From: Owenia fusiformis
Taxonomy: Eukaryota > Annelida > Polychaeta > Sabellida > Oweniidae
Assembly (NCBI GenBank): GCA_903813345.2
Contig: CAIIXF020000007.1
Location: 7,569,730-7,633,729, forward strand
DNA: 64,000 nt
Direction: 5' to 3'
Positions 3-59,600 of the stretch are shown here, piece by piece. Below the pieces are notes generated by a model. It made no database searches and was not told the origin of the DNA. It saw nothing but the letters and a program-made list of their open reading frames with translations. Every line of letters starts with the position of its first letter. Position 1 is the stretch's first letter. The position numbers and the translations under genes were made by a program.

Positions 3-3000
3 CTTTAACATCTGCTCATTAACAGCTGCTAGGATTGAGACAGAACCAAATACCAGCTTGAATAACTTCAGATACAAATTGGACCTCTCCATGTTAGCTG
101 GAATAGCAAAAAGGTAAATTTAAACATGTAAATTCTCCAAATACCAATATATGGTCTTTTTCAACTTAGTAATGACAAATAAGATACAGGAAGAAATTAT
201 CACATACATTTGGTGTAAATGTAAACTCAAACAGCACCAAATAAAAAAGGTAAATTTTTCTTTCAAACACGATAGCATCTAAAATATAGCTCAGCCTAAG
301 ACAAATCCTCAAATAAAAGCAATCCTTGATTCCTTCAAATAAAACGATTGGCCATATTTCTGTAAGGATGTGCATTATACTGTACAATATCATATTCTAT
401 TGTTGTGAGATGTTTCATTAAAAAACAATTCATAAAAAATACATACATCCCATTTCTTCGAGACGCTTCAACAGATATTCTACGAGGATTGTAGCAAATG
501 TAGCAGATGTGGTGGGGTTAGCTAAGAATGAGTTGGCCACAATTTGCAGGGCATAGTTATGATGTATCCTCTCCACCATATACTCCACAGTTGTAGAGAA
601 AATCTCACGGAACGTATTAGGATTCATCAAGGTAAACTGAAAAACCAAATGTTTCAAACTAACAGATATAAGTACTTTACAGGTACAGTAAAACCTGTTT
701 AAACAGAACACCTGTAGGACAGATCAAGAGTGTTCGGATTAGCAGGTGTTCACATTTTAAGATTTCTAAATATGTGGGCCAATGGTAAATAACAAAACTC
801 AGAAACCTTGTCCACATTGACAGGAGTTCCAATAAGACAGTGCTCGAGTTTTACTGTAGTTACATACATAAATTAACATTGACTAGTTTAATGCATTAAC
901 TTTGTTATTCACACCTATAAGCTTTACATCAGATAGATAAGTGACTGAACTATGCTTAGTAAAAGTTTGATGCATTTTCAAAGAAAAATAAAGGTTTTGC
1001 ATTCAATTATCAAATGTTCAAATTTTTTTGGACCACCCTGTATATGAGACAATATTAAACCATGCTTTACATACCACTCCTGCAAAGTGTTCCAACACTT
1101 CCTTTTCTTCCTTCATGCGAACAGTCTGTACGCTGAAAAATATGATTTACATAAAATGAAAACAAGTCAAACACTTTTGTCAATAAACCAAAGTACATGT
1201 AACTTATATGTACATGACATTTGGAGGTTAGAAAATATGATTTACAGGAATGTCTCCCTGTAAGGCAAATATTCCTTTTTTATTTCTGCAATGTCATGTT
1301 AACCTTGAAAAATAGCCATCAATAGCTCAATGTCATAGCTAAGAAATAAACATTCCAACAAAAAAACTTTCTGTCCTCATAAAAAAGAAAGATGCTTGGT
1401 GATTGAAAACTTTCTATAGTATTAAATGCTCTACAATCACATTATATTAGTTCAAAAACAACAGATTCTGGAACTGTATATTATACAGTATAAACAAAAA
1501 ATAGTGGGGTTGCTCCAGGTCCCTGAATAATAAGCTAACAATGACCTTTCCATTTAAATTGTCCAAGATTCCTTGCACCTGTTCACTGGACTGTACTTAC
1601 TTGGCAGGTCTGATGTAGGCTTGACCAGCTGCTGTCATATTAACTGTGTAGATATCTAAAGCCTTCAATGCATGCTTCACAAGGCGGACAAACACAAGTG
1701 TCTCCTTGGGGAGGAACTGCTTGTTCTGTGTAAATGTGGCATCTAAATCAATAGTTGTTTGTACAAATATGGCATTTACTCAAAATAGTTTTGTATATCA
1801 AGGAGGTATCTAGATACCACAACAATTTGAGTTATGTTGCATAACTATGGCATTGATAACAATCATCTGTTTGGTTTAAATGTAACTTTTTCTTTTTCTT
1901 AATGTACACAATTGAAAGTCAGTATAAAGTACCTGTACACAAAATCAAAAAAGTAAAACTCTACAAACCTGTGCCAGGAGCTTTACATGAGGCTGTCCCC
2001 CAAGTTATTGTTTTCACCCCACAGACTAATGTTTTCACCAGGCTCCTACAGTCAGAAACAGAGTAATTGGCCCCTTTACCAGTCTACAAATACACAAAAT
2101 AATATGATTATGATATAATAGTTTATCACATCTCAAACTTTAATGATGGACATGAAAATGATGGAAAATGAAAATAAAGGATACAATAGTCTGAATTCTC
2201 ATGGGATAAATGGTGGTGAGTATGATATATTGGATATCACCCCTCAAAAATGAAATACACATTAAAACAAATTTCCTTCAGTTTGAAAAAAAATAAGCCA
2301 ATGTTACAAATACATAATAATATTGAAGTCTTAATAGCACATGAAAAGTATATGTATCCTACAACGAGTTAAAGTACAATAAGTGGGAAGAACATGTGTT
2401 TTACAGTAAGATATAGTTCAATTCTGATGTCCTCATATTAACTATTGAAAAGGTTTGACTGAATCTTTAAAGTCCCCGTCTAAAGTTTGAAAATATTTTT
2501 TTATCATTCATGTACTATTTGTCAGGACTTAAAAAGTGATTTTAGAGATTTTTGAACAAAAATAATTTTTTGAAAAAAAAGTTGTGAGCATTTCATTTCT
2601 CAAATATTCAAATTTCCCGCCATTTATCAAAAAAAGTTGAAATTTCAAAATCATCAAATAGTTCTTAATGCATTTCAAAAAAGATTATCTTTTTAACACC
2701 AATGCAAAGATTGAACAAAGGACACACTATTATAATAGCAAAATGCCATATTTAATGGGCCACTTCAATGTTTTAGCATATCAAAAATATTTTGAAACAT
2801 TAGTGATGTCACTAAGGTAGCAAAAACTTTTTGAAAAAAATTGAAATTTTTTTTTCGATGTCAATCTTTTTTAAATATGCTAGACTTTCATAAAAAACCA
2901 ATGTTGATTGTCTAACCAGGTTAAAAGGAAGAATAAATTATGTTTTAGATATCATTGTACCATTGGTTTCTATGAGAACTAAAATTTTGAAATGCATTTT

Positions 3001-6000
3001 TCTCATAACCATTTTCATGCACTGATAAGTTCATTTCTCGCTTATTTATGAACCGATTTTCTTAATTTTTTCGGCAAAAAACATGGGAGGATGAATGCTA
3101 TGCATTGGTATGAATTGTGGCTAATTAGAAGATATGAGTGACCTCTAAAAGTTGGTTTTAAATAAGTTCACAAATTTTGGAACAAAAAGTCTATCAAAAA
3201 CCACTTTTTGAAATTTAAAAAAAAGGTTTCACATATCACACTTTGATAACATTGGGTAACACTACAATATAAGCCAAAGTGGTTTAAACTTTATATGGGG
3301 CCTTTAAAGAGGTCATCTGCATGTTTTAGATAGTATTTAAAGTACTTATCAGATTATTTGTAAACAGACTTATCTTTTCATGTTACAATACACACTTCAT
3401 AAGTCTTTATCAGGGTTGGTCTACTCTTTGTGTGTCATATACATCTTAGATGTAAAATAATTATTTCTTATTCACCAGTAAATCATCAAGAAATGTATAA
3501 TGTTTAGAATTTGGATTAAAAACAGTAACATTTAAGTGATAGCTTTTACTGTGTTTATTAATTTAGATTCACAAGTTATTTGGATTAAGGAACCATTCAC
3601 TGAATTTAATTAACCAGTAGAGGAAATTTTCGCATTGTCTCATAGTTATATGATAACCCCTGCTTAGCCTGTTATCTTATCTTATTCACACAGTCTCATA
3701 AAAGCTAAACATTTGTAAAATAAAATACAAACCCGTCTATTGGGTATCCAAAACAACAGCCTTATAAATCCAAACATGGATTTAATATATGGATTGTTTC
3801 TTGGAGTTTTGTTTGTATCAAGTTGCACGTCGGAAGAATCTAAGGATGTGAAAAAGAGGTCACCTGTGGTTCAGACGCCATTGGGGGTCACGTATCCAGT
3901 TAGGACGGCAAAGGAAATACGACAACTTCAGGAAACTGGGGTCCTTGCACCTGGCGATGTCATAGAGATGCAAAATGGAATATGGGAATCGCAACGAATT
4001 ATTGTTAACGTTTCCGGAACTGAGGAAGCTGGGCGGAGGATCTATCTGACTGCCCAAACTCCCGGAGGGGTAAGCCTGAGAGGGAAGTCATACATCCGAA
4101 TGAATGGGAACTACATTGAAGTACGTGGGGCACTTTTTGAAGGAACAAGCTGGGAGAAACACTACCCATTTCAATTTTCCAAAAACACCCATCACAACCG
4201 TGTGACAAATTGCCTGGTACGTGGATTTAACCGTGAAGACTCAGTTTCAACGAAACATTACTGGGTCGAGTTATGGGGTTCATATCATACAGTAGACTGG
4301 AACGCTTTTGAAGGGAAAGGTATGCACAATGGTGAAATTGTACGTGTGAAAGGTGACCCGTCAGAGGTAAGGGAATCATGGGGACATTATATCGCAAATA
4401 ATTACTTTGGAGCAAGACCAGATGTGCAGACAAATTCGGCAGAGGCTATTCAAATTGGGATGAAGAACAACTTTCAGGATTTAGAAACAGTTGTAGAAAA
4501 CAATGTGTTCTATAACTATGATGGCGAGATAGAAACTATCTCTGTAAAAGGTTAGTTTTATTTAATACTCACATCTACCCAGTTTAAATATCCAAACTCT
4601 TGCCATATAAGCTTGGTCTCTGGTTAAAATTGTGTGAAAAATGAATATGATTCATTAAGGCCAAATTCTTGACTCAAACTTCTAAAATCCTATTTCTAAT
4701 AGTATTTCTAATTCTATGAGTGGTTGTATAGACAAAAACTGAATTCATTTCATTAAGACTTCCAGTTATTTTCTATCTGAACATTGGGTCTATAAAATTA
4801 TATAAAGAAAGACTGAAAATAATACTCAGTAAAGAATATTGAGATTGATAAAATGTTTTGAACTGTAATATGCACTACCTTTTATTTGAATTTTCAGGTA
4901 GTAATTGTACGCTACAATACAACACATTCATCCAGAGTAAGGGGCTACTTTGTCTTCGTGCTGGAGACAGAAACGTTGTCCAGGGGAACTACTTTTTCTG
5001 TGACAACAAAAAAGACTGTGGAGGGATACGCATCCATGGTAACGATCATCGGATCTTAAATAACTATGTCGAAGGTGAATACTCTGCATCAATGGCACGA
5101 GGTTCAATGATAGTGCATTCTGGGAACCCTGAAGCTGGATCAAATGGCGACAAGAGACGAACACAGCGATCATTAATTGCGTTCAATTCTTTTGTGAAAT
5201 GCCGTCGTTGTATAATCATTGGAGAAGGTGGCGAGGAATACCCGAGAGACAATATAATCAGTAACAACGTAGTATGGGGCGAGAATCCACTTGTCACACT
5301 TATCGACATTGAAGATGGCGCCGTAGACAATGCCCACAATACATTATTTGAGAGTAACATAGTATCTAATGGATACTCATTTAGGACAGGAAATGGGATC
5401 CGTCAGACAGCCCCTCGACTGGTGAGACACCCAGTATTCCAGTACTACACTCCCTCGGCAGAAAGCACTGCACTGATACGCCAGGCCCGTGGTAAGCAAC
5501 TATAGTATACATATAGTTTTTACATGTATTGTATTTTGTAAGAGAATTGTAATCTAAAGTAAATTGCTTTGTAAACCTAAAAACTAATCTCTTACTTTAA
5601 TAAGATGCAGATAGTATTGCACTAAAAATAAAGTATTGGAATACAAAACCTCATTTTTTTATTAGGAAGTGTATAATGAGTAAAATATTTGATTGTTTAT
5701 CAGGAGAATACAGACGTGCTACTACTGAAGACATCAGTGGCAGATGGCGTGCAATGCCTACTGACATAGGAGCTGCCCTCTATGAAGCAAACACAAATGA
5801 GATCCCCACAAGACGTCCTTTAGGACCATCAGACGTTGGACCTGACTGGTACACTCCTACACTGATCAACCCACAAGAACACTGGGAACAGTATGACTTC
5901 TCCCATTATGACGATTTTGACTTCTCTCAAGAGGGTATCAAAATACCAAAGGTCAAGGTCAAAGATGGCAAGGTTATTAAACCAGAAATGAAACTAGATT

Positions 6001-9000
6001 AACTAATCTGAGTTATTACCCATAATGCTCCTGAGCTGTCTGCATCTTTTACAATGAAAGAAAAATATTTACTTTTGTATATATCTGTATTATTATTATT
6101 ATTATTATTATCATTTATTTGCCTGTATTTAAACAGAGTAGTTTAACACATTAATTATAAATTACAATCTATGTATTGTGAAATCGAACATAAAAATAAA
6201 CCAATCTATATTATGAACATTTTTGTTATTTTGTTTGAAACACAAACTTGCGGTATTACCTGATTGTCTAAATACAGTCAATAACTAAGAGCAACCTGTG
6301 TTACCTACATAGGCTCTCATCATGCGTGACCTTTTGTTTGTCATACTTAAGATGATTTTAGATATCTCTATCATGTCCTCTCTGTCAACGTTAACTTCGT
6401 TGAATGCAAATAGAACAGATGTTCTTGAATAAGCATTAATGTATTTCCTTGTGATTAATGTCAGTTTGGCATGCTCATCTGAGTACGCGTTGCAAGAATT
6501 CAGAAAGTGGTCAATTGTTTCTATTTCAAATAAATCACATAGCACACATATACAGTTAATACCAGAATTTTTAACGCGAAGATCATGACAGTCCGTGGCG
6601 AGGCGCATTATGTTTTTACATGGTAAGAGAAGTTCTGGTTTTAGTCTTGATAACGTCCACCAGGCAGTTGGCTTCATAAGACCTGCTGACGTCTCGCTGA
6701 TATCGCAAATGTTCTGACATATTTCGTGCCTATTGTACATTGAGCTTGTTGTCCTAAAGTCTCGTCTTATCTCGCAGCCTATTAAGTCTCTAATCTTGAG
6801 CTTCCAAGCAGGTTTTGTTGGGAAAATGGCAGAGGTAAGCATTTCTATGACTGCCTCTTCTAGGTTGAACCGCTGTACACATTGCCACATTCTTGATATA
6901 GGTGAATTCCATGATGGCAAGCTGCTCGTTACTATCTGAGTAAGTCTTAACATCATGAGTTGTTTATAAATGTTATTCATTGGCAGACAAAGTATTCCGA
7001 AAAACATCAGCAGTCGATCGTACATGATTTTCATTTGTATTGGCATAATCCCAAGGGGCATAATTGAAGTTGGGTTACTACTATTCTTGGGCAAAAATTG
7101 TATGCGCCTGCAAATTTGGCGTTGTGTTACCTCTAGCTGCTCAATTTCTCCTCTCTTATAGTCAATTATTTGATCCCCATATAACATAGTTGGGATGCTA
7201 AAACTATTGTACAATTTGGCACTAACAATAGGTGTCAACCCTCCAGATTTACTACCCAAACCAAATAAGGAGTACATTTTCCTTTTCCCATTGGAGCTTG
7301 CTCGAGCTACGTGGTCTTTAACATTTCCCGAGGTTGATAATGGTATACCGACGTGTAATGCACTAGTTACGTTCTTAATGTTCTCTTCACCCAGTTTAAA
7401 ATTAAACTTGGAGTTTGATGTGTCTCCATATGTTAAAGCAACGCACTTATCTGGATGTAGTATATATCGCCATCTATTACTGTGCATAAACGCCATGTCA
7501 ATAAGCGTATTCATAGCGTTCGGAAAAAGTGATATGAGTGCAATGTCATCGGCATAGGCTGTAATTCAAAACATGAACAGTTTTGAAATAAAAATGGGAA
7601 TGATTTTTGGATAAAAACCAAATAAAGTATAAATGAACTGCAGAATATTGTTTGTGTAAAACTGCATTATAGAAAGGTTTTGCACAATGGGTTTTAGCTA
7701 AAATGTATGTGCAACCTCATCTTGTTTTATTTGAAATGCTATGTATAAATCTGGTGAATGCATTGTTGATTTTAGATACGTTGAGCTAAAAACATTGTGC
7801 GAAACCTCCCTAATAACACGAAAATTATAAATCAAGAATAAGATAAAACAGAAAAAGTTCTAAAAATTAATAAAGTAAAGCAATCAGAGGGGTTTCTTAC
7901 CTTTTCTTTTTCATCTTTCGAGTCAGTAACTGTAGTTCCAGGTTTATCATCTTTCACATCTGGCTCTTTCTTGATCTCAATAGTAGGTGGAGGGGTGGGG
8001 GTCTTGCTTGTTGAATCATTGGTGGGGCGACTGATATGAAAATTTTGAATATTTTTAGTGTGTATAAAGGGGTGTTCAATGAGTCAATGATTTATTTTTT
8101 TGGAATTGTTGGATAATTCACAAATTACCCATTTTTCAAAATTAATTTGTACATTACAAATTCACTTGAATCTAAAAAATATTTCATGATAACTTGTCCC
8201 CTATGATTGTACGCTATATGCCTTATATTCTATTTTTCACTATTTTATGTCTTATCTCAATGGATATAAGATATCTTAATCTGTAAAAAAATCAACTTAC
8301 CATTTAGACATAATAGCAGGTAGCTGTAGTTCTGCTATAGTTTTAAACTTCATCACAAACACGACTAACATTCTCATCAACAATTCCCGGCCCTAAAAAT
8401 ATGAACAAAATTACCATTTAAAAACATTTTATGAACAAGAGGCTCGGAAAAATGACCCTGATAGTGCAAAGCCATGAATAACTGGCACTATTGAAACCCA
8501 CTTTTTCTCAATTGAGTGTCCACTGTAATCCACTTGCATTAACCACTATTATAATAACATAAAGGAAATAAAATAAAAATAAAAATGGAGAAAAATACAC
8601 CATTCTTTCAACACTTTACACTATGAAACACAGAAACTTACATTTCCAGTTTCCTGTTCACTACGCTGACCAATACATTCTACGAGATTCAATAATAATT
8701 TACAGGACATTGTCTGAATGTTGCTGGGTAGAGTTTCATCATGGACATTCTTGGAGAAGAGATTCACTGCCATGGAGAGTTCATTAAGAGGCAAGGACTG
8801 CCTCACATGGTGCACTAAGTCAGCTAGGGTGCTATAAGCCAGTGGCCTGCAATGAAAATAATACCCAAATTGATAAGTCTGCAAGTGATATATGCTAAAT
8901 ATGAGTAAATACAACAGAACTCATAAATGAACCTATATCCATGTAGTGGCTCTAGAGATTCAACTTTACATGGAGACATGTATATGTTCAGTTATCAATT

Positions 9001-45298: not shown

Positions 45299-48200
45299 TT
45301 ATGGCACAACTTCTAACATTGTTGGTGCTTGGTTGCGAATTTTACGGGTCGGGGTCCCTGGTTTACGGGCTGTCATACCAGGTTGAGGCTGGCTCATGGC
45401 AAACTCGTAAGTTTTCTGAAAAATATTAATAAAAGTTCATTACATAACATTTATTATCTTTTGCAATTTATTTCCAATGAGATCTAACTATCAGGCATGT
45501 TCAAACAAGAAAGTACATCATAATATCATTGTCTTGTTGGATATTATAGTATCATTATACAAAGGCCTTGAAACCCCCAAAGAAGCTTATTGTATACAAT
45601 TATCCATTCAGAAAAAATATCCCATGATAGAAGTTATTGAATGATTTGAAGTGCAATACAGGATATATTCTGTTCGAGAAATTCTGTATCGGAAAGAGAC
45701 AAAGTCGAGTGCCAATACAGAACTGACCAATCAGAGGGCTTCATTTTACAGATCATACAATAATTATTGTGTATATATTTAAAAGTAGCTATTTGGCTCT
45801 CTTGAAATCCTTATTTTGAGTGAAAAATATATTGCTATGTCATACCCGTCTTTCTGTTCTCATCCTGGCATTGTAATAAGCTGCCGAGTCAGGATTCTCC
45901 ATCAAAAGTTCTGTCTGGAGGCGATCAAACTTTTCTTGTTCATCTTCAGGCTGAAATAAGATACCATTAGATTGTTAATAATTCATAGTGTCACACATGT
46001 ATCCAACTTCATCAAATGCCTTGTTATGCATCCAGAAGTTTTGTAAATCAAATTTAATTCATACTTAATAAATAATTCAGATATAAAAAGGGAAGAAAAT
46101 AATTTGTTTCTCTTGAATACATGATTAAAAAAAGTAATATTATGGTGCTTCTTTGAAAAAAAGGCATACTCACTTTAAGTCACTGATTTTTCATTTATTA
46201 CTTGTTAATTTCTCTTATGTTCTATGATAAATTAATGAATAAATGGACCACTGCAATCTTTTCATCAGGCAAATGCTCATGGTTTGAATTTTTTTATTGA
46301 TTTTAGACTTATACAGATCTGAAGAACATCAATCTGATGCACACAACATGATGGGAATATGAAATCTAATTTCTTTCTAAACCAAAAAATGATTTACTTC
46401 TAACTTACCATTCCGTTAGGGTCATATGGTGGCACGACTCCCGCCCTCATTCCCACTCCAGCTTGCTGACTAGTTTGTAGGTCATCACCAGGGGTTAGGA
46501 AACTCTCTGCATACCATGCGTCAAACTCTGTGATCAGTCGTTGACGACATTGGTCGACTAATTTTTGACAATATTGAACTTCAGATTTTAGAGATTTCAA
46601 TTCTTCAAAGTCTACTTTATAGGAATGTTTGAGTTCTTTGAGTTTTTTGATTTCTAAAAATTCTTCCTCTGTTATTATTGCCTCTCCTTCATCATTGTAT
46701 AGACCACCTGGAAGCAGAAATATAAAATATCTAGAAAATTAAAAAAAAGGATATCCACATTCAGTAATCTTAGAGACTGCATTAAAATTTTAAACATAAC
46801 CCATTTAAAATCTGCCTGTCAGTTATTAATGACTAAGGAGGTACACTTGCATATGCATTTCTACAGAAAAAATGGAACTGCATGCTCTAAAAGTAATTTT
46901 TCTGACTCTTTCAAACTTACCTTGTGATTCTCTATCCATTTTCAAATCCTCTAGCTTCACTCTAGTTTTGTCAATATCAACTTTTACTGAGTTAATAGCT
47001 CTGGCTCTTTCAGCATAAGCTTTCTTCTTGTTAACCAAAATATCCTTATTTTCATTAAGAATTCTATTAATTTCACTTCCGCGCTCATTTTTAAACTCTT
47101 CAAATGCAACAGTCCTGAGGGGTGGTGTACTAGGGCGTTGCTGTGGTGGGGGCTGGGTTCGTTGACCTGCGGAGCTAGGAGCACTAGATGGTGGTTCCTC
47201 CCCCTCTTGTTCTCCTCGTTTCTTATCAGCTGAGGGGGTGTGAGGAGTTGCTGTGTCCTTGTCTCTGGTACTCTGTTGAGAGGCTGCTGCTTGTCCACCC
47301 TTGCCTGCTATAGGACTGCAATACAAAACATTCAACTCAAATTATCGACATATTAAATAATTTTCAAATGTATAATCTTAGATTGCCAGGGGTTACTAGT
47401 ATAGTACTTGCAGGGGTTTCATTGGCAATTAGCAACAAGTGATTTTCTCCAGTTGTTTAACCAAATTTGTTTGCTGAACAAATGTTTCTATGCCAACAAT
47501 ATAATTAAGAAATATAGACCGAAGAGCTGGGCTACTATTTTCGAATACATCCCAAAGGGCTTGGCACAAACGTTTTCTGTAAGTTTTTGTGCCTAGCCCT
47601 AAGGGGTGTAATCAAAAATAGTAGCCCTGCTCTGAGGTCTATATTACGATTCGAACATGGAAACTCACCAGAATATTGCAAAATCGTCAATTTCGATGTT
47701 CATTTCCACTTTTTTCATTTCTACTTCCGGTTGAGCTTTTGCACTGAACGAAAAACTTAGTACAGAGCCAGGGCATTGATCTCGAATATGACCCGGGTGA
47801 AACATTGACTTTGTTCACAGTTTATAGAAGGCGTGAATACAGTCATGTTGGAATTTCCCTTAAGGCCCATCAAGCACGAACAGCACAAAGATATTTAACA
47901 AAACAAAACATTCTAAAGAAGCTTTATCAGAAAACCTTTGTCTGCTAACCCTCTATAATAGTATTCATACACACCCCACCAAAACCTTGGCAACTGGAAG
48001 TCCCCTTTTGAACCATACGTCTTAAACTCTGTTCATGTATAATGACTGATTTTTACCTTGTCATAAACCTTTTATCTATTGCTATTGAGGAGCAAACTCA
48101 GGATAAAAACAGGCTTTAAAATGCTATCCACTGGATATATCTGGTTTCCAAACTTGTGGAGGGGAGTGTAATACCAGGATAATCAATCCAGCCTACCTAG

Positions 48201-53637: not shown

Positions 53638-56600
53638 ATGGCAACAAAGAAGAATAGGAGGTAAGAATAACAATACTAGGTCGAGTCAATCATCAATAAA
53701 GTACATTTTCTTCAAATTCTCGACGATCTACTTGTGGGATTGTGGAGAAATCTACTTTGTTTACAAATAGTTTCATTTGACTTTGATCATCACATCTGAC
53801 ATTTTTAGGCCTAATTGATCATTCAATTCGTTTTCACTTCAGAGATGAGTCTTTGGCACTCTTTTATTGAAGTGTAATTTGATGACTCAAGTCTTGGTCT
53901 CAAGTCTTGAGTGAAAACTGAAGATCTATAGTAGATCTATATGTGTTATTTATTTACACAGTCAGTGAAAATGAATAAGCACTCAAATCAAAGGACCCCA
54001 CACTTTCCGTAGGTCCGGGAACGTTGCATGTATAAAAGATAAAGTCTGAGTCCTTTCAAAAAAATCTAAGTGGATATAATAAATCTCATTTCATTAATTT
54101 AAAGGTTTGTCACGTAACCAGTTTATCGCACACAAGTGAAATCGATTCTTCATTCGTGCATATATACGACTATCTTTTGCTATATTTACCTGTTTATTTG
54201 AATTATTCCCTCCAATTCGAACTTTGAGACTCACCTGATTATACATGTTATTGGGCCTATGACAATTTCATTTAGAAAATAATTAGCCATTATGTCCCTA
54301 TCATTGAATATATGCCTGAGGTCTGACGTCAATATAGCCCGAGCTTGCGAGGGTTATATTTACGACATACCTAAAGTACATTTTACATTACATTTCATGA
54401 ATATAATATGTAGAAATGCGTGAAAAAAGACAAAAATGCTTTGTTTTCATGTTATATCAATGACGTCACACGTCTGTGTGCGATTGGAACATGTAAGAAA
54501 TGAAACGTGACGTCATACGATTGTCATGGTAAAAAGTTTGGCGGCTATACAGGAATATATAGCCGTCCTTCGGCTCCATTGACTTCCATACAAATGCTTC
54601 GCTAGGTATGTAATACTTAGCAGTTATGTCCCTATCATTGAATATATGCCTGAGGTCTGTCACCAATATAGCCCGAGCTTGCGAGGGCTATATTACGACA
54701 GACCGAAGGCATATATTCAATGATACGGACATAACTGTTGTATTACATACTTTTATATCATGGCTACGTTATATCAATGACGCCACGTGTCTGTGTGCGA
54801 GTGAAATTAGGAAGAAATGAAACATGACGTCCCGATGACGTCATAAGATTGTCATGGTAAAAAGTTTGACGGCTATATAGGAATATATAGCCGACCTTCA
54901 GCTCCATTGACTTCAATACAAATGCTTCGCTGGGTATGTAATACATTCATATATAGCACTGTAGGTTTGATTGACACAAAAGCCAAGTGAAATAGACTAT
55001 AATCTTACTCGTCTCTTCAAAGGCCATGAACTTCATTTCATCACATTTTCAGACATGACGATGATGATGGAAAGGACCAGGTCTATGTCTGGCAGGGCTA
55101 CATTGGAACAATCACACCAAGATCATTTGATGTGTTTAGTTCTTTACCTGTACAAAAGGTGGCACTGGGATCTCATCATATCAGTTTCCTCACAAAGTTT
55201 GGAGAAATGTACACCTATGGAAACAATCAGTATGGACAGCTTGGCCTTGGACACTTGACAGATGAGCTAAAGGAGCCTTTTCTGGTTGAGGCATTATTAG
55301 GTAGACTTTTCATTTCATTTCTTAACTTCATTTTAGCCTGTCTGACATTCAGTTTTTGTACAGTGAATAAAGATAGACACTTATTTATATACATGTAGAG
55401 GTATGGAAATAATATTTACAAAGGCCGATCCAGAAGTTCTGATAAAATGCAAATGTAGTATTTATATGATAATATACAGACTCAATTATACAGTATAGAT
55501 ATACTGGTTGCATTGATAACCTGCAAAAGGCTAATAAACCCACTGGTTGTGAGGTAGATATTTAATTTGAAAATAAATATAGAACATAATGGATTCAAAT
55601 TATTTACAAAGCCACAATTTCCTTAATGTTGATGTATATTTTATAGATTCCCATGTATTCTAAATTTCTTATCTGAATATACATTGAAAAGACAGCCCAG
55701 CAATGATTTTAATCTCTAATTTAGGGTTACTAGTGTATATGAACGTGGTATTGATAATTCTCTATGGTATTTTCCAGGGAAATTCATAACAAATATGGAT
55801 TGTGGAATGCGTCACACTGCTGCTGTGACATCATCAGGTGATGTGTACTGTTGGGGTGATGCATTACATGGACAGTGCGGACCATATACTACAGACAAAA
55901 TTCCCACTCCATGTTTAGTTAGTGTCACGCAGGATCACCATGTGTGTCAACACGGTATCCCGGCTGAGAGCAATGCCGTCTCTATACAGGATATTAGTTG
56001 CGGGGATACGCATACCTTAGCTCTCTCTACAGACAGTGATATTTACGTCTGGGGTACAGGCCCACAGCTTGGCCTAGGACAGGTTAAACACACATCTAAA
56101 CCCACCTTAATGCAAACTTTCACATTCAGACATGTCTTGAGTATATCTGCTGGGGCTCAACACAGCGTTGCATTAGTCAAGAAGAAAACAGTCAGCACTA
56201 GGAACCTATCTACCCCTGAGAGTCCTCAGTGTAAGATTAAAGTGCATGACATCAAACCATCAACATGTGTTGAGTGCAATAATGAGATTTACACATATAC
56301 TGAGACTAACGACACTTGTATTATTGACAATGATCACACATGCCCACTTGGTTTAGACATTGATAAAACAGTTGCAAGTGAGGACAGTGGATTAGAACAC
56401 TCAAATGGCAGTGAAGCCAACAGTGTGTATGATTCAAATGGAGCGAATTCTGAGCCCAAACCCACACAGGCCCACCTATTGGTAGTTGATGATACAGTCC
56501 CAAAATCGAAGAGTTCAACTTCATTTGTTGATGAAATTGAAGCTAAGGCATTTCTTCAAAGACAGCTTTCGAACAATGAATCTAATCCTGGTGCAAACCT

Positions 56601-59600
56601 ACAAGAGAAAACATCAGAAATTGAAATCATATCGAGGACATCTTCTCTCGATAATGTTGATCACATCGTCATGGGTGGTCAGACTTTCCCGCCGTCAAAT
56701 AATGCTTACCTCAGGGGTAAAATCGGCAGCATTCTTAATAATGTACCCATGACATCAGGCGTGGTTGATCAAGTCTCTACTATAACTAGTAAAGTTATGT
56801 CTACCGTAAAGGATTCCATGGATAAGTTTGGATTTGTGTCGAGCCCCAATATTGACAGTATTACGCAGATATCTGAGTCGAGTAGTGTTGAATCTTTTTC
56901 AAGCGATTCAAGGTCAGATTCCCTATCAGGGTCATCTCCAACTTTACAAAGGCACAGACATGTAGACCCAAAGAGGTCAAAGTCATTGAAACCGGATGAT
57001 GTGATAGAAGAAGATAAGTTGTTGAGTAGAACTAAGTCATTGCCTGTTGGTCTTGTCAACCATGTTAAACAAGGTAAATCAAAATATGTTTTGGAAATCA
57101 TTTTGTATTGACACTTATTGATAAGGGATGGTGTCTAAATTCGAACAGTTGTGGAAAATTTAAGCTGGTTTTTTTAATGAATAGCCATCATCCCCCATCA
57201 TATATAATATAATTTGAAAAATTTAATACTGAGTATGCTTTTCACTTGAATTTTTCAAAAAATCAACAGCTTTTACCAATGAAATTTCCTTTATCCCCTT
57301 TTCCATAACACACATGTTGATTTTTTTGTTTTCAGAATATTAACATATTGAATTACATTATTTTGCAGATGGTGAAGTGTGTTGCGAAACAGAAGTTTGG
57401 GTCTGGGGTGATGGCCAGAATGGGCAATTGGGACTAGCTGACCTCAAAGAAAGGTAAACACATGCTGACATAGCCTAAGAACGAGGCCAAAGAGGCAAAT
57501 GCCTCACTGCCTCACAAAATAAATTGTAAAAGTGCTTTTCATGAACTCTACTGCTGATATGAAATTCAGACATTGATCTCCTTTTAGATGTTCAAATATC
57601 AGATGTTAGATTTTAAAGCATCCTTAACAAGTACACAGAAGCTGCAAAGGGGGTTGTTAAGCTTTAAGTTGCAATCATTATTGCTCCAATTACAGTTCAG
57701 ACAATGCAATACAATACCTTATAGTGGAAATCAATATGAAATTCATTATGCCGATTATGAAGGCAAATTGTTTAATCTGATTTCCAATTTGGTGGCAACT
57801 GTTGGATGTAGGATAATGCAATTGAAGTACTGAGTACATTGTATAGTACATGAAATTCAATAATGTATTATATAGCATATAATACTGTACATGTGTATTG
57901 ATTAAAAGTTTTTTCACAGATTTTTTTGATGTACAAAATCCAGCTTAAATTCAAACTTGAAATTGAATACAGCCTGCATCATTTCAAACCTACTATGCTG
58001 ATATTCACTCAACCAATCAGAGAGGTGAAATATAATGCTTTAATGTCGGTAAATTCTGGATTGACAATAACATCATCAGAATATAAAGCATAGAAAATGG
58101 TCCTGAAGTTTTTAGATCAACTACAATCTGTTCACGATTCTTGCACGTTCTTTTTTAAAAAAGAGTTTTTTACCAAAACATCTGGCAAATATCCCCTGTT
58201 GACACGTTACATTTTGAAATATTTTTCGTCTTTAAACGCTCATAACTCAAACAATATATGACTATTATACTTATTTTTCGTCTTGATAAAGGTAGATGGA
58301 AGTTTCATTTCAAAGGATGAATTTTAGTAAGCGTCCCATTTTGTGACGTCATAGAGTTTGAAAAATAGAATCTGTTGACAGCGACCTTTTTTGCTCATTT
58401 TTTGTAACCTTCAACTTTTCAGGTGTACATTAAACAAAAAATACAAGATCAATTTTTAATAAATCATACATCATTATTTTGCTCTTAAACTCTAGTTTAT
58501 TAATAAATAGTTGATTTTGTTCGCAAAAGTATGTGTTTTCTGTTGTATGTGGAAAAGTAGAGGACGAAAGGTTTTCAAAATTCATTAAAATAGGGCTAAT
58601 TTACGCCATTCGCCTATTTTCAAGCACAGCAACACGTATATTTATTTCACCTATAATATCAATTGATTCGTGTTTTATGATGCTCCTATCCCATTGTTAA
58701 TACATATACAATATCATAGTTATTCGCCTTAAATATTTTGAGATATAGAGGCAAATGTGGAGGATGAAAGGATTTCTATATGTGTACATTTTTCTCAAAA
58801 AAAACGTCACATTCTGTGGTGTTAAAAAGCGAAAATGTGTAACAATGCGTGCGCAATCTTTTTGCGACTACGTCAATGCAAGCAAAGGGTAGATTAACTA
58901 TCAATTGTATGCACCATTGAAGTATAACTGTAAACTAGATTATAAGGGTACAGTTCATTTTCATCCAAACTGAGATGTATATACTTCTAGAGCCTGGATC
59001 TTGTATTGGAATTAAGTTGGAATTTTCATTGATTTGCCACCAGGCTTTTGTAGTTGTTTTTTTTTATTAATCATTTTTATTTCAAGTTCATATATTATAA
59101 CATTTAATTTCATACAATGAAAATTCAACAAGGTTAATCAATTTAACATTTGTGTTGAACTTCGAAGTAGACATACCATACACTTATATGCAATACAAAG
59201 GACGATTCTCGGTTTGGAGAACGAAGTTCATCAATCTAAATGAGCATTATCCCTGCTTCGGACAAATTTGATTTTTTTTACATAATATAGATTTGAATGT
59301 CTTCTTTTGAATAGTCATAATTTAATTTGGGTAATATTTCTATATTTTTCGCAAAAAAATATTAGCGCAGTACACCGATGAACTTCTTTCCCCAAATCGA
59401 GACTTGTATTTTACTGAATCGGTCTAATTGAGCGTTATCCCTGCTTCAGACCAATTTGTTATTTTTACATTTTGTAGATTTAAATGTCCTCTTTTGAATA
59501 TTCATAGTTTAATTTGGGTAATATTTTTATATTTTTCATGAATCAAATTATTAGCCCAGGAGACTGTTCTCCAAACCGAGAATCGTCCTTTGTTACAATT

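Follow-up and report, generated by a model that had tools for sequence, protein, structure and literature searches.

How a gene for polysaccharide lyase family 6 (PL6), a family known chiefly from bacteria, came to lie in the genome of an annelid, and whether its product still works there as an enzyme, are the questions raised by a stretch of 64,000 nucleotides of Owenia fusiformis DNA (the window; C7:7569730-7633729 of a 498-Mb, 525-contig assembly in which contig C7 measures 39.8 Mb). The gene occupies window positions 3776-6002, antisense within the span of the conserved gene TRRAP, and the genome holds a second, lectin-fused copy, here called the paralog. We consider it probable that the window copy is a working nuclear gene for a secreted, Ca2+-dependent PL6 lyase, which was gained once from a bacterium long ago and then duplicated; the direction and age of the transfer, and the secretion, metal binding, activity and substrate of the protein, are what we infer from the comparisons that follow.

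The gene is made up of three exons:

3776-6002, plus strand: PL6 lyase gene, start codon through stop codon (spliced frame, Pfam and structure-database matches)
3776-4550, plus strand: exon 1, residues 1-258 plus base 1 of codon 259, coding for the hydrophobic N-terminus, one helix, the first half of the beta-helix, the probable Ca2+ ligands and the catalytic Lys
3776-3826, plus strand: hydrophobic N-terminus, residues 1-17 (best 11-residue mean hydropathy 2.53)
4551-4897, plus strand: intron 1, GT-AG, phase 1, 347 nt, GC 0.27
4898-5491, plus strand: exon 2, remainder of codon 259 to base 1 of codon 457, coding for the second half of the beta-helix, the catalytic Arg and the Ala that replaces a conserved His
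5492-5703, plus strand: intron 2, GT-AG, phase 1, 212 nt, GC 0.24
5704-6002, plus strand: exon 3, remainder of codon 457 to the stop

Once spliced, the exons give 1668 nt with no frameshift, i.e. 555 codons and a stop, and the start codon stands in the context CAAACATGG. An earlier, sequence-only reading had described the gene as apparently intact, and this description holds, with three exons in frame, two GT-AG introns, a profile match at 2e-56 and the family motifs kept. Similarity to bacterial proteins extends to residue ~505-517 in many matches, covering most of exon 3, and the last ~40 residues have little backing from relatives. The same reading had counted a polyadenylation signal in favour of the gene; two AATAAA hexamers are indeed present within 600 nt 3' of the stop, but shuffled sequence holds a mean of 0.74 and at least one in 53% of shuffles, so that the hexamer carries little weight and was dropped as evidence. 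Judged by its hydropathy, the N-terminus is probably a secretion signal. Within it, LFVSSC-T (window 3809-3829) resembles the bacterial lipoprotein box, with Cys in that column in 11/173 bacterial rows, and may be what is left of a lipoprotein signal or a product of chance.

The protein scores 192 bits with the Pfam profile PF14592 (Chondroitinas_B), for which the cut-off is 24. A sequence search of the Protein Data Bank (PDB) returned 15 distinct sequences at E <= 1, every one of them PL6, and was led by the alginate lyases 8bwk (3.5e-45), 7o84 (1.7e-41) and AlyGC (1.5e-38). Exon 1 (258 aa) and exon 2 (197 aa) were modelled separately, with bacterial rows, reaching a predicted local distance difference test (pLDDT) score of 84.9 and 83.4, and the structures matched at E <= 0.001 were PL6 in 24/24 cases for the first model and 22/22 for the second, with TMq up to 0.77 and 0.82, respectively. 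On homology and on the models of these two exons, the window protein is a PL6 parallel beta-helix. It has in common with the PL6 alginate lyases (Pedsa0632, 7o7a/7o84; AlyGC, 5gkd; the metagenomic enzyme 8bwk) the family, the beta-helix and the catalytic Lys and Arg with their surroundings, whereas those enzymes are bacterial, and AlyGC and 8bwk, when aligned, have RH where the window protein has RA and Arg where it has Q226.

Residue conservation was counted over 179 bacterial rows (>=250 aa, out of 184 frames), which are partly redundant, each denominator being the number of rows with a residue at that position. N220, E251 and E253 we take to be the Ca2+ ligands, N220 from AlyGC and chondroitinase B. 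Numbered by the window protein, the residues concerned are:

4433-4435, plus strand: N220, probable Ca2+ ligand (N in 177/179 rows; Asp in the paralog)
4451-4453, plus strand: Q226, in place of the -2 subsite Arg (Arg216 of BcelPL6, by spacing; R in 171/179 rows, Gln in 6)
4526-4534, plus strand: E251 and E253, probable Ca2+ ligands (E in 173/179 and 178/179 rows)
4547-4549, plus strand: K258, catalytic Lys (Lys249 of BcelPL6, PMC6879350; K in 178/178 rows)
4957-4959, plus strand: R279, catalytic Arg (Arg270 of BcelPL6, PMC6879350; R in 178/178 rows)
4960-4962, plus strand: A280, replacing the conserved His (His271 of BcelPL6; H in 169/178 rows)
4999-5019, plus strand: C293 and C299, Cys pair common to the paralog (Cys in 5/175 and 1/178 rows)
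5029-5031, plus strand: R303, +2 subsite Arg (Arg294 of BcelPL6, PMC6879350; R in 177/178 rows)
5200-5211, plus strand: C360 and C363, Cys pair common to the paralog (Cys in 63/176 and 0/95 rows)

The identities of K258, R279, E251 and E253 in the sequence-only reading, and its remark that the His after R279 has become Ala, are both borne out. The spacings of 21 from K258 to R279 and 24 from R279 to R303 equal those of Lys249, Arg270 and Arg294 in the mannuronate-specific BcelPL6 (6qps), as given in the available part of PMC6879350, and that enzyme differs in requiring His271, which is Ala here, and in the Arg216 that binds at its subsite -2, which by spacing is Gln here. Because the catalytic residues are kept, the PL6 scheme can be carried over to the window protein: the hydrophobic N-terminus would lead to its secretion, Ca2+ held in the beta-helix by N220, E251 and E253 would neutralise the uronate carboxylate at +1, K258 would take the C5 proton, and R279 would protonate the leaving oxygen, so that the chain would be cut by beta-elimination. 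From its sequence, then, the window protein probably leaves the cell and cleaves a uronate polymer by beta-elimination.

The loss of the His gives rise to one competing explanation, in which the window copy, as a pseudoenzyme, would fold, be secreted and bind its polymer without cutting it, while the paralog, which keeps the residue, would be the active enzyme. Such a division of roles would suit Ala at a position that is His in most of the bacterial rows and 95% conserved across PL6, the inactivity of the H271N mutant of BcelPL6, an enzyme that needs Lys249 and Arg270 besides His271 (all PMC6879350, in part), and the exchange of the -2 Arg for Gln (Q226). On the other side stand the retention of K258, R279, E251, E253, N220 and R303, the report in the same source that mutating the His had a negligible effect on AlyGC and AlyF, which are G-specific, and left chondroitinase B 25% of its activity, and the presence of Q226 in both copies. 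Nine of the 178 bacterial rows are likewise without the His, two of them with Ala (L093 and L137, the same genome fetched twice), and across this alignment the residue therefore does not define the family. We regard the pseudoenzyme as an unlikely description of the window copy.

Other positions set both animal copies apart from the bacterial rows. W175 and W167 are Trp in both and in 0/178 bacterial rows, where the usual residues are His (161/178) and Tyr (142/178), respectively. The C293-C299 and C360-C363 pairs would form disulfides, in keeping with oxidising conditions along the secretory route. C360 by itself is frequent among the bacterial rows, and at position 363 many of these rows are gapped. 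The window copy also has C262 (window 4906-4908) in place of the Asn of 177/178 bacterial rows and a second unusual Cys at 277 (1/178), between which an additional bond special to this copy is possible.

Genome searches found at least two PL6 genes, four exon matches in one search and six in another each resolving into two genes, with no third seen. The second is:

C5:13858517-13855980, minus strand: PL6 paralog (L007), six exons in frame to the stop

It lies on a 42.5-Mb contig and codes for a SUEL lectin domain (4.1e-11) at the start, followed by PL6 (1.2e-48); a scan of ~1.9 kb upstream for its first (signal) exon gave one poor candidate, and the start was not found. Four of its five introns are in phase 1, and three interrupt the PL6 domain at points close to residues 137, 228 and 367 of the window protein, so that none coincides with the introns of the window gene at 259 and 457. 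The paralog retains the active-site His, with Thr as the next residue against Gly in 178/178 bacterial rows. The two proteins are ~40% identical, and of the 164 to 167 compared columns in which their residues match, 32 hold a residue found in <=5% of bacterial rows. For comparison, 150 bacterial pairs at 36-45% identity shared a mean of 0.8 such residues and a maximum of 5, a control too favourable to the pairing because each bacterial pair, unlike the animal one, had near relatives among the rows counted. A stricter control again took bacterial pairs of similar identity and excluded each pair, together with the rows more nearly related to it, from the counting; in the 140 pairs retained (460 of the 600 drawn were dropped, as <60 rows remained) the mean was 6.9 and the maximum 16, and the excess in the animal pair thus holds, at a smaller size.

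A tree of 78 rows, comprising the two animal proteins and 76 of the 184 bacterial frames chosen by score and limited per source, unites the two animal proteins with support of 100/100; their stem measures 1.25 changes per column, with 0.44 more on the far side of the midpoint root, the choice of which is arbitrary. This support, together with the 32 shared residues rare in bacteria, suggests one old acquisition followed by duplication. The window gene has probably been long resident, as it has its own introns, a diverged paralog and a GC content at third codon positions (GC3) near that of its host, 0.40 compared with 0.467 in those TRRAP exon pieces that a search confirmed (495 nt) and 0.44 across 1257 nt (partly picked by eye and including one 45-nt piece that overlaps another in a second frame). 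On the favoured reading of a single bacterial gain, the lineage would have taken up the gene once, from a bacterium; it would then have acquired introns, approached the codon composition of the host and come to carry a Cys pair of use in the secretory pathway, and after duplication the second copy would have joined an animal SUEL lectin domain.

The bacterial relatives were collected from genomes drawn from phyla (in one case an order), with the seed genome counted in. Relatives of the window protein were found in 14/392 genomes of the phylum of a Planctomycetes locus, 41/395 of that of a Flammeovirga locus, 34/387 of that of a Lentisphaeria metagenome-assembled genome and 22/398 of that of a Shewanella locus, as well as in 21/98 genomes of the order of the best match, which is 38% identical over residues 32-507 and comes from the Flammeovirga-phylum genomes. 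Further rows came from 75 genome-contig loci and from five of the 10 records matched in a plasmid search, all of the 10 at <60% identity. A first genome-contig scan with the window protein alone gave 0 relatives among 12 pattern matches. A viral source has no support, since a scan of viral contigs gave 0 relatives among 65 pattern matches and the phage records contained no match to the PL6 domain of either copy.

Several results weigh against our reading. The NCBIfam collection has no model that matches the window protein; the Ala lies at a position whose His-to-Asn mutant was inactive in BcelPL6 (PMC6879350); and the GC3 of the gene is somewhat lower than that of the TRRAP pieces. The comparison set consists entirely of bacterial rows and the two animal proteins, and the paralog has a long branch (1.9), of a kind for which the tree tool issues a warning. 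Holding the animal pair with 16 Flammeovirga-phylum rows, the best BLAST matches, gave a p value in the approximately unbiased test (p-AU) of 0.042, and holding it with 13 Planctomycetes/Verrucomicrobia-type rows gave 0.080, both groups having been picked after the tree was seen. A quicker tree of 178 rows places the pair differently, with L092 and L094 (support 87), within a set of 11 bacterial rows (support 92). Between them, the two trees and the p-AU tests fix no place among bacteria, and the naming of a precise donor was rejected. The protein search and phylogeny that had been proposed for this gene, run here on bacteria, support the sisterhood of the animal pair. Of the suggested ancient bacterial gene made eukaryotic, the nuclear location and eukaryotic structure stand, long residence is probable and a bacterial source is plausible.

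Two features of these trees may be recorded separately. The 11-row set into which the animal pair falls holds six His-less rows (L112, L151, L108, L150, L137 and L094, with Gly, Lys, Ala or Gln), which could form a His-free PL6 subgroup. In the 78-row tree the animal pair is adjoined, with modest support, by L088 (Sphingobacterium), a divergent row, as L092 and L094 also are.

The long stem that separates the animal pair from all sampled bacteria is also what would be seen if PL6 were old in animals or eukaryotes and had descended vertically with many losses, this genome retaining two copies, and the identity of only ~40% between the copies and the complete difference in their intron positions would agree with such an age. 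Set against this is the literature, which is weak evidence: in 2016 all 177 PL6 proteins in CAZy were bacterial, according to the available part of PMC4954714, and in 2024 PL6 was placed among the families in which alginate lyase activity is known essentially from bacterial members (PMC11468063, likewise in part). These accounts agree with the premise that PL6 is known chiefly from bacteria, and it is because of them that a bacterial source is plausible; vertical descent we rate as improbable, at about the level of the pseudoenzyme.

Considering the question of substrate, alginate is the leading guess. At the head of the structural matches of exon 1 stands the alginate lyase Pedsa0632, which acts on poly-MG and poly-G (PMC4954714, in part), and by analogy with the characterised enzymes a polyG-like or mixed target appears likelier than polyM, as replacement of the His by Ala tells more strongly against the cutting of polyM than against cutting as such. 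In both copies the -2 subsite departs from the form seen in most of the bacterial relatives, so that the polymer actually cut may be a uronate polysaccharide other than alginate. A bolder proposal, which we put forward only tentatively, is that the two genes represent a branch of PL6 peculiar to animals, acting on a substrate that the bacterial alginate lyases do not use and marked by loss of the -2 Arg, by W167 and W175 and by the Cys pair; one copy is His-less and the other would be aimed by its SUEL domain at a galactose- or rhamnose-bearing polymer, the two forming a two-part system that digests or disarms an acidic algal or bacterial polysaccharide.

The sequence-only reading had also raised the digestion of matrix polymers, and an animal chondroitin or dermatan sulfate lyase working on the animal's own matrix would have in its favour that the family includes chondroitinase B, after which the Pfam model is named, and that chondroitinase B partly tolerates loss of the His (PMC6879350, in part). 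The chondroitinases B (7o78; 1dbg, 1ofl, 1ofm) share family and fold with the window protein, but they match it less well than the best alginate lyase does, at 2.4e-21 for 7o78 (Pedsa3807) and 2.5e-16 to 2.7e-16 for 1ofl and 1dbg. They rank 11, 14 and 15 of the 15 PDB sequences, so that the window protein is not closest to the chondroitinase B subgroup; the ranking by fold, with chondroitinases B at lower ranks for both exons, agrees with that by sequence, and no link to matrix was found. The suggestion thus gained no positive support, and we think a matrix lyase distinctly improbable.

The setting of the gene is given by pieces of TRRAP, with residues numbered after the full-length TRRAP chains in the PDB, which we take to be human:

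8642-8827, minus strand: TRRAP exon piece, high-coordinate side (TRRAP 379-440, 3.8e-25 at best)
1603-1734, minus strand: TRRAP exon piece, low-coordinate side (TRRAP ~572-617, 1.2e-9)
448-624, minus strand: TRRAP exon piece, low-coordinate side (TRRAP 643-701, 2.4e-24)

The peptide of 8827-8642 scores 89 bits with five TRRAP sequences and 33-38 with five others (Tra1 and a kinase entry), which points to an animal host. Minus-strand pieces thus lie on both sides of the PL6 gene and run in minus-strand gene order, which places it antisense inside the TRRAP span, as had been claimed. Bacterial contamination or mis-assembly, for which it can be said that the family is described mainly from bacteria, is to be dismissed, in agreement with the sequence-only reading, on account of the two GT-AG introns, the GC3 near that of the host, the TRRAP pieces flanking both sides on a 39.8-Mb contig and the lectin-fused paralog on a contig of 42.5 Mb.

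Between the same flanking TRRAP pieces, ~280 bp beyond the PL6 stop, is a retrotransposon-like frame (window 6285-7562, minus strand), the RVT_1 match of which (0.0079, 16.4 bits) is below the Pfam cut-off of 29.6. It has one nearly full-length copy of 99% identity on C5 and partial copies of 98-99% on C11, C9 and C1, and this degree of identity indicates recent insertion. Elsewhere in the window are a minus-strand frame matching the KIF9 domain (46826-47335, 5.4e-14) and a plus-strand frame with RCC1 repeats (55795-57111), with a weak match to alsin under its cut-off.

Among the matches listed from the open-access PMC literature no paper dealt with PL6 in an animal, and automatic database entries may well exist; the main text of a compendium of metazoan transfers (PMC13342648) contains neither 'chondroitin' nor 'alginate'. 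What is new here is a PL6 enzyme in an animal, together with a lectin-fused sister. There are points of comparison in other families. Glycoside hydrolase family 32 (GH32) of invertebrates is reportedly a carbohydrate enzyme gained by animals from bacteria, and resembles the case proposed here in being a bacterial enzyme taken up by invertebrates, in a different family; we know of no lectin fusion for it. Abalone and other molluscs have alginate lyases of polysaccharide lyase family 14 (PL14), likewise eukaryotic and acting on alginate, but of a different PL family. The available part of PMC11468063 lists PL14 among the alginate lyase families of some eukaryotes.

If active, the window protein would be a uronate lyase of PL6 within an animal genome, with which the animal could attack alginate-like or bacterial exopolysaccharides by itself, independently of gut bacteria. 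The gene pair offers a test case for the fitting of a bacterial enzyme to the animal secretory pathway, through the Cys pair, the introns and the lectin fusion, and another for the role of the conserved active-site His, which one copy has lost and the other has kept. For the family as a whole, its presence here makes PL6 an unsafe marker of bacteria in metagenomes.

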